Positions 21,967 to 32,362 of a DNA stretch of 34,001 bases are shown here, one piece after another. Within the stretch, counting starts at the first letter, position 1; the number at the start of each line of letters is the position of its first letter. The DNA is taken from assembly GCA_018826885.1 (NCBI GenBank), contig JAHJYN010000172.1:1-34001 (forward strand), written 5' to 3'. A program made the position numbers and the translations under genes. Under the pieces are notes generated by a model. The model did no database searches. It had not been told where the DNA came from and worked only from the letters and a program-made list of their open reading frames with translations. Source of the DNA: Alphaproteobacteria bacterium (GTDB taxonomy: Bacteria > Pseudomonadota > Alphaproteobacteria > Caulobacterales > Caulobacteraceae).

Positions 21967-24536
21967 CCTGCCACCAGATTGACGATACGATCGGGCACCA
22001 CGATCACCTTTTTGACCGACAGACCATTGGCTTCAAGGTAGGCGCGCACGGCGGGATTGGCCAGCGCCTCGGCCTCGACGGCCTTGGGATCGGCCCCGCG
22101 CGGCATGACGATTTCGCCGCGCTTCTTGCCGCCGATCTGGACGGGCAGAGTCAGCTCGTCGTCGGCCGCGAGCGCCGGGTCCCACTGGGGCCAGGGGGCG
22201 TCGAGGACCATCCCGTCCTCGCCCAGCGCCGACCAGCACTCCTCGGCCAGGTGGGGGGTAAAGGGCGCGATCAGGCGGGCGAAGGCCGACAGGGCCTCGT
22301 GCCGGGCCGCACCGCCGGCGCTTGCATGGGCGCGCAGGGTCGACAGGAAGCCATACAGTTTTGCGATGGCCGAGTTGAAGCGGAAGCCTTCGACGCCTTC
22401 GGTGACGGCCTTGATCGCCTTGTGGGTCTCGCGGCGCAGGGCCAGATCGGCCTCGCCCTGATCGGGAGCGGAGGCGTCAAAGCCGTCGAACTCGGCCCAG
22501 ACGCGCTGGACGAAGCGACCGGCGCCTTCCAGACCGCCGGTGGTCCACTGGACATCGCGCTCAGGCGGGCTGTCGGACAGAACGAACAGCCGCCCGGCAT
22601 CGACGCCGTGGCTGTCGAGGATCTCCTGCGGCGCCACCACATTCTTCTTGGACTTCGACATCTTCTCGATGTCGCCGATCGACAGGGTCTCGCCGGTCGA
22701 CAGGCGGGTCGCGACGCGCTGGCCGTCCACGGTCTCGAGGCGGACGTCGGTTGGTTCGACCCAGGCGCCGGCCTCGGTGCGGTAGGTCTCGTGGACCACC
22801 ATCCCCTGGGTGAACAGGCCGGCGAAGGGCTCCTTCACCGACATCATGCCTGCGTCCGACAGGGCGCGGCTGATGAAGCGGGCATAGAGCAGGTGCAGGA
22901 CCGCGTGCTCGACCCCGCCGATATACTGATCGACGGGCAGCCAGTGGTCGGCGGCGGCCTTATTGATCGGCGCCTCCGCCTTCGGATCGGTGAAGCGGGC
23001 GAAATACCAGCTGGAATCGACGAAGGTGTCGAGCGTGTCGGTCTCGCGCACCGCCTCGGCGTCGCAGGAGGGGCAGCGGACGTGCTTCCAGCTCGGGTGC
23101 CGGTCCAGCGGATTGCCCGGTTTGTCGAACGTGACATCCTCGGGCAGCACCACCGGCAGCTGGTCAGCCGGCACCGGCACCGCGCCGCACGACGGACAGT
23201 GGATGACCGGGATCGGACAGCCCCAGTAGCGCTGGCGGCTGACACCCCAGTCGCGCAGGCGGTACAGGGTCTTGCCTTCGCCGGCCCCGGCCGCCTCGAC
23301 GCGGGCAATCACCTCGGCCTTGGCGTCGGCGATCGCCTTGCCGTTCAGGAAGTCCGAATTGAACAGGGTGCCGGGCCCGGTATAGGCCTCGCCCGCCACG
23401 TCAAAGTCGTCGCCCGCGCCCTCGGGCCGGACCACCGGCAGCACCGGCAAGCCATATTTACGCGCAAACTCCAGATCCCGCTGGTCGTGGGCCGGACAGG
23501 CGAAGATGGCGCCCGTGCCGTATTCCGAAAGGATGAAGTTGGCGATCCAGACCGGGATCTCCTCGCCGGTGAAGGGATGGCGGACCTTCAGACCCGTATC
23601 GCGGCCGATCTTTTCGGCCTGTTCGATCTCGGCCTCGGACGTGCCGCCCCGGCGGCATTCGGCCACGAATTCCGCGACGGCAGGATCGGCCCCGGCCAGT
23701 TGCTTCGACAGCGGATGATCCGGCGCCAGACCCAGGAAGGACGCCCCGAACAGGGTGTCGGGTCGGGTCGTATAGATGTCGATGCCACCCTCGAACCCCT
23801 TGGGCGGGGTGCCGGCAAAGGCCCAGGTCATCTGCAGGCCGCTGGACCGTCCGATCCAGTTTTCCTGCATGGTCCGCACCTTGTCGGGCCAGCGATCCAG
23901 CGTCTTCAGCCCGTCGATCAGGTCATCGGCATAGTCGGTGATCCGCAGGAACCACTGGTTCAGCTTGCGTTTTTCGACCAAGGCGCCCGAGCGCCAGCCG
24001 CGCCCGTCGATCACCTGCTCATTGGCCAGAACCGTATTGTCGACCGGATCCCAGTTGACGACCGAATCCTTGCGATAGACCAGACCGCGCTTCAGCAGCT
24101 CCAGGAACCAGGCCTGCTGCTTGCCGTAATAGGCCGGATCACAGGTCGCGAACTCGCGCGACCAGTCCAGCGACAGGCCCAGCAGCTTCAGCTGATCGCG
24201 CATGGTGGCGATGTTGGACCAGGTCCATTCGCCGGGGTGGACGCCGCGCTCCATGGCGGCGTTCTCGGCCGGCATGCCGAAGGCGTCCCAGCCCATGGGG
24301 TGCAGCACCTCAAAGCCCCGGGCCCGTTTGAAGCGGGCCACCACATCGCCCATCACATAGTTGCGCGCATGGCCCATGTGGATGTTGCCCGACGGATAGG
24401 GAAACATCTCGAGCACATAGTATTTGGGCTTGCCGGTCGGCGTGCCGGAATCGAACGCCGGGTTGGTGAAGGCGTCAGCCTCGCGCCAGCGGTCCTGCTG
24501 GCGGGGCTCGGCGGTCTTGGGGTCGTAACGGGCCAC
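21963..24536 (-). CDS. leuS: leucyl-tRNA synthetase
   Basis: [26 protein letters not shown] (HIGH-type), [10 protein letters not shown] (KMSKS), editing-domain [21 protein letters not shown]. Confidence 0.98.
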
Positions 24537-30408: not shown

Positions 30409-31206
30409 CTAGACGTCCAGATCGACGCTGACCGGCGCGTGGTCGCTGGGCCGCTCCCAGGCGCGCACCGGCTCGTGAATGCGCGCCGAGCCGGGCACCA
30501 CGGCCGGGGTCAGGCCCGGCGACGTCCAGATGTGGTCGAGGCGCAGTCCGCGGTTCGACTTGCGGAAGTCCTGGGCGCGGTAGCTCCACCAGCTGGCCAA
30601 CTTTTCCGGTTCAGGGAAGGCGTCGCGGATCACATCGCTGAACCGCCCGGCCGCCTGCAGCCGCGTCAGGGTCTCGATTTCGACCGGCGTGTGGCTGACG
30701 ACCTTCAACATATAGCGGTGGTTCCAGACGTCGAACTCGCCCGGCGCGATGTTGAAATCCCCGGCCAGCAGCAGGGGCGCGTTCGGATCGCGGCGCCCGA
30801 CCTCTGCGGTCAGCCGTTCGTAGAAGTCCATCTTGTGATCGAATTTCGGATTGAGCGCCCGGTCAGGCAGATCGCCGCCCGCCGGGATGTAGAAATTCTG
30901 GATCTCGACGCCCCGGACGGTGGCCGAGACGCAGCGCGCATGGCCCTCCCGGCACAGGCCCAGGTTCGGCGCCGCGTCCAGCGGCAACCGACTGGCGATG
31001 GCCACCCCGTGCCAGCCCTTCTGGCCCCCGATCTTCAGATGGGGCAGCCCCATCTCCTCGAACGCCCGCACCGGAAACTGGTCGTCGGTGCATTTGATCT
31101 CCTGCAGCAGCAGGACGTCGGTGGCGCTCTCGCTCACATAGCGCGCCACCTGATCGATGCGCAGGCGGACGGAATTGATGTTCCAGGTGGTCAGGCGAAG
31201 GGTCAT
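30409..31206 (-). CDS. xth: exodeoxyribonuclease III
   Basis: MTLRLTTWNINSVRLRIDQVARYVSESATDVLLLQEIKCTDDQFP, LLAGDFNIAPGEFDVWN, LRLDHIWTSP, SDHAPVSVDLDV. Confidence 0.95.
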   Translation of the reverse strand: MTLRLTTWNINSVRLRIDQVARYVSESATDVLLLQEIKCTDDQFPVRAFEEMGLPHLKIGGQKGWHGVAIASRLPLDAAPNLGLCREGHARCVSATVRGVEIQNFYIPAGGDLPDRALNPKFDHKMDFYERLTAEVGRRDPNAPLLLAGDFNIAPGEFDVWNHRYMLKVVSHTPVEIETLTRLQAAGRFSDVIRDAFPEPEKLASWWSYRAQDFRKSNRGLRLDHIWTSPGLTPAVVPGSARIHEPVRAWERPSDHAPVSVDLDV

Positions 31207-31240: not shown

Positions 31241-31270
31241 AAAAAAACGCCCGGCTATCAGACCGGGCGC
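31241..31270 (-). terminator. Rho-independent terminator (minus strand)
   Basis: Minus strand gCGCCCGG-TCTGATAG-CCGGGCG-TTTTTTT: 7-bp GC stem followed by seven T. Confidence 0.9.
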
Positions 31271-31338
31271 TTTCAGAGGTGTCTCTGCCGCAGGGAGGGG
31301 GATGACATCCGTAGCGGTCAAATGGCTGCTGCCAGCCT
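31241..31338 (-). ncRNA. candidate small RNA (~98 nt) between lolA and xth
   Basis: Bounded by TTGACG-N17-CATAAT promoter and U7 terminator; 5' hairpin GGCUG-GCAG-CAGCC, C-rich CCCCCUCCC segment, hairpin CAGAG-ACAC-CUCUG; no ORF of note on that strand. Confidence 0.6.
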
Positions 31339-31344
31339 GTTGTC

Positions 31345-31373
31345 ATTATGCAACGTCAAACCGAAAACGTCAA
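31345..31373 (-). promoter_or_regulatory. sigma70-type promoter TTGACG-N17-CATAAT (minus strand)
   Basis: Plus strand ATTATG 31345-31350 and CGTCAA 31368-31373, 17-nt spacer. Confidence 0.7.
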
Positions 31374-31376: not shown

Positions 31377-31436
31377 CGCGTTACAGCGGCGCCTCCTGTG
31401 GCGGTCCCGACACGATTCGTCGATCAGGCGTTTGCG

Positions 31437-32096
31437 TCAACGATTGCGTCCGGGGCGGCGGGTCGGGTCACGCAGCTGGAACAGGCTGCTCGACAGACCG
31501 CTCGCGGGTCGGAGCGTCGTCAGCTGGGTGCGGGTCCGGGCCCCCTGGGCGTCGATCACGGTCCACTCCTGCAGCCGCATGGGGTCACCGGCAAAGGCCA
31601 GGGTGACTGCGCCGTCGTTCGGGCGGCGGGAGTCGCGCGCCACGAGGGCAAAGGCCCCGGACTCCCGACGGACGACCCGGTCGATGCGCACGCCCTGGTC
31701 GAGCCGGACCTCGCGCGACAGGAAGGTCGACAGCGGCGTCTCGCTGAGCGGGACCTGTCGGAACACCTCGAGGCGCGGGTCATAGCGCATGACATTGTTG
31801 CCGTCCGAAACGACCAGCAGGCCCTCGGGATTGGTGTATTCGAAGCGCATCTTGCCGGGGCGCTGCAGCCAGAACCGGCCCGTGCGGCGCTGACCGCCCG
31901 CGCCCGTCTCGACAAACTCGCCCTGGGCCGCGGTCAGGCCGCGCAGATAGGTCTGGGCGCGGGCCACCACGGCCTGGTCCTCGGCCGACAGGCCCGCCTG
32001 GGCCATGACAGAGGGTGCACTGACCAGCAGGCCGGTCACGCCGAGCGCAGCGCCGAGGCCGAAATCGCGGCGGGACAGGATGTGAGGCGTCGTCAT
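31437..32096 (-). CDS. lolA: outer-membrane lipoprotein carrier protein LolA
   Basis: AQTYLRGLTAAQGEFVETGAGGQRRTGRFWLQRPGKMRFEYTNPEGLLVVSDGNNVMRYDPRLEVFRQVPLSETPLSTFL; alternative start 32105. Confidence 0.9.
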   Translation of the reverse strand: MTTPHILSRRDFGLGAALGVTGLLVSAPSVMAQAGLSAEDQAVVARAQTYLRGLTAAQGEFVETGAGGQRRTGRFWLQRPGKMRFEYTNPEGLLVVSDGNNVMRYDPRLEVFRQVPLSETPLSTFLSREVRLDQGVRIDRVVRRESGAFALVARDSRRPNDGAVTLAFAGDPMRLQEWTVIDAQGARTRTQLTTLRPASGLSSSLFQLRDPTRRPGRNR

Positions 32097-32270
32097 GAAA
32101 TCCATCCTTGAAAGTGAAGCGGATCGAGGCTCGACCATCCCCGGTCCACATGGCGCGGTCATGGCTCCAGCCTGACCATATTCCGGCGCTGCGATGAAGC
32201 CCCGTTCATCGGAAACAGGGCGTGGCGCCGCTCCGGCCCCGATCAACGCGTCCCACGCCCGCGGGTTCAT

Positions 32271-32310
32271 CCCTCAAGCAGCGAGCGACCGCGTCGCGAG
32301 CGTCAGGGCC
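32271..32310. repeat. 40-bp intergenic hairpin repeat, copy 1
   Basis: CCCTCAAGCAGCGAGCGACCGCGTCGCGAGCGTCAGGGCC, internal stem GCGAC-CGC-GTCGC. Confidence 0.85.
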
Positions 32311-32318
32311 AAAAGCCG

Positions 32319-32358
32319 CCCTCAAGCAGCGAGGCTCCGCGAGCCGAGCGTCAGGGCC
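32319..32358. repeat. 40-bp intergenic hairpin repeat, copy 2
   Basis: CCCTCAAGCAGCGAGGCTCCGCGAGCCGAGCGTCAGGGCC, internal stem GGCTC-CGC-GAGCC. Confidence 0.85.
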
Positions 32359-32362
32359 ACTC

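Follow-up and report, generated by a model that had tools for sequence, protein, structure and literature searches.

Results

Predicted promoter, transcript and terminator between lolA and xth

The stretch of DNA analysed here, 34,001 nt in length and hereafter called the window, carries on its minus strand the genes lolA (31437..32096; LolA PF03548, 97.9 bits, above the cut-off, with the start codon taken at MTTPHILSRR) and xth (30409..31206; Xth TIGR00633, 171.8 bits, also above the cut-off). The gap between them holds a putative transcription unit on the same strand. Its predicted promoter is formed by a -35 box TTGACG (31373-31368), located 63 nt past the lolA stop (31437), and a -10 box CATAAT (31350-31345), with a spacer of 17 nt. 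From the predicted start at 31338, an RNA of about 98 nt (31241..31338) would end at an intrinsic terminator (31241..31270), made of a stem at 31270-31248 followed by U7 at 31247-31241. The U-run lies 34 nt from the start of xth, its downstream neighbour. In 2.2 kb of sequence, where 0.2 sigma-70-like promoters were expected, that of the sRNA was the only one found. These elements had been proposed in a sequence-only reading of the window; on recheck, the coordinates of promoter, start and terminator and the 63-nt spacing from lolA all agreed. Intergenic palindrome-like repeats of the type CTCAAGCAGCGAGCGACCGCGTCGCGAGCGT were seen near lolA at about 32270-32360, and also near the RNA in several Brevundimonas loci (L005, L013 and L014).

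Predicted fold of the RNA

The window RNA folds at -42.8 kcal/mol, compared with -30.0 +/- 3.2 kcal/mol for shuffled sequences (z -4.07), and was more stable than 200 of 200 shuffles. The predicted fold comprises four minus-strand stem-loops, the last being the terminator. Stem-loop 1 (31324..31338) shows compensatory changes in relatives; stem-loop 2 (31288..31317), whose core is nearly invariant, bears the C-rich loop AUCCCCCUCCC (31293..31303); and stem-loop 3 (31274..31287) is a feature of the predicted fold only, as stem 3 was absent from the consensus structure of the Brevundimonas alignment described below. The sequence-only reading had also pointed to a CAGAG/CUCUG stem. This stem is perfect in the window genome and in its nearest relative, but most other Brevundimonas have GAGAGAGAC...ACCUU at that position, and it is therefore not a conserved feature.

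Conservation and covariation within Caulobacteraceae

An alignment of 18 Brevundimonas loci (the window plus 17 fully alignable homologues from a DNA search) revealed that promoter, RNA and terminator are kept in all of them. The -35 element reads TTGAC-NTTTT, its TTGAC being retained in the 18 loci, and the -10 box stays at the same place with a variable sequence. The invariant core of the RNA is CCGC-N2-CGGA...AUCCCCYUCCC-N-GCGG. In the first and last stems, that is stem-loop 1 and the terminator, compensatory changes amounted to 25 cells, as against 10.0 +/- 3.6 in shuffles, and none of 500 shuffles equalled this value; the numbers of paired cells and the covariation both exceeded all 500 shuffles, and sliding the stem partners abolished the pairing. 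As stem 2 is almost invariant, it provides no covariation evidence. The alignment of the lolA-xth gap in relatives that the sequence-only reading had put forward as a check yielded covarying first and last stems and a retained C-rich segment.

The nearest copy of the window RNA, in genome G004, is 96% identical, and its relatives identify the window genome as a Brevundimonas. A covariance model built from the aligned Brevundimonas sequences (R1) had matches in 259 of 300 Caulobacteraceae genomes (E <= 0.01); among the 73 Brevundimonas genomes listed, 66 had E < 1e-6. When R1 matches from Caulobacteraceae other than Brevundimonas were retrieved, 19 out of 20 were situated between lolA and xth. 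Conservation, covariation and synteny all back the earlier proposal of an orphan, discrete sRNA that would pair through a C-rich segment. The Brevundimonas core sequence also occurs on a contig that bears a Paracoccus MAG label (L096) and was probably misbinned.

Relationship to RusT

In Caulobacter crescentus the gap between lolA and xth encodes RusT (CCNA_R0199), a 118-nt sRNA that, according to the text of the original report, is bound by Hfq through stem-loop 3 and carries a seed that includes C53 in stem-loop 2 (PMC11005374). The order and strand of lolA, RNA and xth in the window are the same as at the RusT locus. To compare the RNAs we used a covariance model (R2) derived from the lolA-xth gaps of other Caulobacteraceae and free of any Brevundimonas sequence. 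R2 recovered the window RNA with a score of 43.9 bits (E 1.2e-9), and in a search of the whole genome this RNA was the top match (E 9.7e-8), the next one having an E value of 0.157.

The Caulobacter-type loci were numbered with the help of two published coordinates, that of CCNA_R0199 (3987216) and that of a hypomethylated GANTC site (3987164) lying 52 nt upstream (PMC5988900, PMC5172544); the start was placed 52 nt from GAATC. Numbered in this way, the loop of stem-loop 2, AUCCUAUCCCCUC, occupies nt 45-57 with a C as residue 53, AGAGAC begins at nt 72, and the RNA measures about 121 nt versus the published 118. Because the published RusT numbering is reproduced, we consider these loci to be RusT; the assignment was made by locus and numbering and is indirect but tight.

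The window RNA shares with RusT the lolA-xth gap, the order on the strand, the succession of four predicted stem-loops, the last of them an intrinsic terminator, the C-rich seed loop of stem-loop 2 that includes C53, and a GAGAC-containing stem-loop 3 region, which aligns to the hairpin region through which RusT binds Hfq. Its AUCCCCCUCCC aligns to UAUCCCCUCCC in the loop of stem-loop 2, so that the C-rich stretch singled out in the sequence-only reading corresponds by position to the tested seed loop of RusT. The two RNAs differ in length (98 nt versus 118), the shortfall of about 20 nt falling mainly in stem-loop 1, and in the stem of loop 2, which is CCGC-UA-CGG in the window and CCGUGCCGG in RusT. 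Judged by its locus, by sequence and structure homology and by its seed, the window element is an orthologue of the published sRNA RusT.

A candidate operator upstream of the promoter

A dyad CGTG-N10-CACA (31397..31414, minus strand) is located 24-41 nt upstream of the -35 box. The pattern YGTG-N10-CACA was present in 13 of 73 regions upstream of the RNA in relatives (shuffles gave a mean of 1.3 and a maximum of 5), and there it is often followed by GGCAAG. Given the occupancy of the rusT promoter by NtrX in Caulobacter, we view this dyad as a candidate operator, and by analogy it is possibly an NtrX operator. Published NtrX sites are of the CAAN2-5TTG or GCAN9TGC type. A GAATC sequence at 31414-31418, a GANTC motif of the CcrM type, touches one end of the dyad. 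For Caulobacter, a published list of hypomethylated sites includes a GANTC located upstream of CCNA_R0199 (PMC5172544).

Discussion

Proposed action and putative targets

As described in the text of the RusT report (PMC11005374), RusT is elevated upon disruption of ntrX, NtrX is present at the rusT promoter, iron chelation and zinc are inducers, and the RNA acts in trans as a discrete molecule on TonB-dependent receptors and OmpW. The following model transfers this behaviour to the window species. The RNA would be transcribed from its own sigma-70 type promoter up to its own terminator, and the C-rich loop AUCCCCCUCCC of stem-loop 2 would pair with the G-rich regions where ribosomes bind mRNAs for envelope proteins. 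By transfer from Caulobacter, a disturbed iron homeostasis would raise its transcription under the control of NtrYX, and the RNA, acting with Hfq, would reduce the production of some receptors and porins of the outer membrane. The hfq gene is present in the genome. Transcription, NtrX control, Hfq binding and the targets in the window species are all deduced by analogy.

The start regions of TonB-dependent receptors did not, as a class, pair better with the seed than other starts did (21 versus 164; medians of -12.5 and -11.9 kcal/mol, p = 0.42), in a test that is weak, with a rough choice of start codons and a control set in which a few sequences are the RNA itself in antisense. One receptor, on contig 182 of G000 (L176, start codon at 1339), has a ribosome-binding site, CAGGGAGGG, that is complementary to CCCUCCCUG of the RNA, a match of nine bases, and 14 homologues of this receptor retain a G-rich site (GGGAGG). 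We regard this gene as a lead only, since it was selected as a top pair out of a large number and conservation is in any case usual at ribosome-binding sites.

Alternative explanations

The position of the unit invites the idea that its promoter serves xth and that the terminator sets the degree of read-through, the RNA being a leader or attenuator. That xth begins 34 nt past the U-run on the same strand, in an arrangement preserved in Caulobacteraceae, is consistent with this; yet the distance from RNA to xth varies and reaches 415 nt (L069), many copies in other families of the order lie beside lolA with no adjoining xth, and in Caulobacter the orthologous 118-nt RNA is a discrete molecule with targets in trans, all of which makes an xth leader very improbable. 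Orthology with GsrN, the comparison suggested in the sequence-only reading, or with another general-stress sRNA, is hardly credible. GsrN resembles the window RNA in having a C-rich loop for pairing to G-rich sites in mRNAs (PMC5869019), and the small size also fits; it differs in its sigma-T/EcfG promoter and its neighbourhood, the two features by which it was set apart. The sigma-EcfG type motif GGAAC-N15-19-CGTT does not occur near the RNA (the window has a single match, at 23948 on the plus strand), and the neighbours are lolA and xth, not sigT/phyR, the genes that GsrN homologues typically adjoin in Caulobacteraceae except C. crescentus (PMC5869019). The match to the model of the RusT locus is also strong, and RusT is the right comparison.

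A different doubt concerns function. The RNA could be a RusT orthologue by descent whose regulon and signal have changed in Brevundimonas, as might be suspected from the non-significant receptor class test and from a seed and stem-loop 1 unlike those of Caulobacter. We consider such a change possible but unlikely, as the seed core AUCCCCYUCCC is retained and one receptor has a matching ribosome-binding site whose G-rich character persists in its homologues. The reading of the window RNA as a RusT orthologue, with its own promoter and terminator and acting as a C-rich loop regulator with the iron, NtrYX and Hfq roles transferred from Caulobacter, is in our opinion highly probable. It would give an orphan feature of an intergenic gap a name and a regulatory role amenable to testing in Brevundimonas.

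Other sRNAs with comparable sequences were considered. A scan of the window gave no Rfam family at the gathering level; SorX (RF02784) reached 19.2 bits against a gathering score of 46.6 and anti-hemB (RF02837) 19.6 against 49.5, weak matches that come from a shared CCUCCC-type stretch followed by a GC-rich terminator. PmaR of Agrobacterium also has an accessible C-rich loop that pairs with targets; it differs in that reports of it are confined to Agrobacterium and a single strain of Rhizobium, and in its position between genes unrelated to those here (PMC6234868).

A probable wider family in Alphaproteobacteria

The main text of the RusT report names Caulobacteraceae for its homologues (PMC11005374). 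R2 also matched other families of the order, and all 15 loci retrieved from them (L120-L134, E < ~4e-5) lie just downstream of a lolA homologue. These RNAs have a further hairpin on their upstream side, with CCCCCC in its loop, and those of Caulobacteraceae lack this second C-rich loop; R2 matches from outside the order likewise have the two-loop form. RusT-like RNAs outside Caulobacteraceae were noted at L120-L134, L137, L144, L149, L208-L212, L214 and L216-L239; they are mostly beside lolA and bear the additional conserved hairpin loop GCGUUGCCCCCCCGC. Matches without lolA in their vicinity (L068, L135, L138, L143, L145, L146 and L152) were attributed to chance.

At E <= 1e-4, a model of the two-loop form without Caulobacteraceae sequences (R3) matched 36 of 387 genomes from the class; several matches had E values of 1e-17 to 1e-21, and some of these belong to its own training set. 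When R3 was run against the window, the window RNA ranked first (E 0.0016). Many R3 loci adjoin LolA, and some adjoin other genes (L229 to L233 and L237). No Rfam family exceeded its gathering threshold in a scan of RNAs from eight sources, in Caulobacteraceae and beyond.

We think it probable that RusT represents one lineage within an ancient family of alphaproteobacterial sRNAs, mostly associated with lolA and without an Rfam entry, and that this family in its wider form has two C-rich loops, GCGUUGCCCCCCCGC and UAUCCCCUCCC, only the second being present in Caulobacteraceae, this Brevundimonas included. If this is true, the family may couple the control of outer-membrane proteins to the adjoining gene for a lipoprotein carrier. 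The window RNA is the Brevundimonas version of a known sRNA, and the greater novelty lies in the two-loop family that spans the class; the occurrence of two-loop RNAs across the class is the new part here, although its priority is not certain. The finding made in Caulobacter is thereby extended to a family found throughout Alphaproteobacteria with a conserved seed, in which the second C-rich loop was either lost or gained. Such a class-wide spread offers enough sequence diversity for an RNA family model and for comparative target prediction.

In other orders, a small gene whose product has GRWPIGVSGNTFHIF-like residues at its end was observed beside the RNA (L209, L212, L213 and L215), and in L212, L213 and L215 it directly precedes xth.
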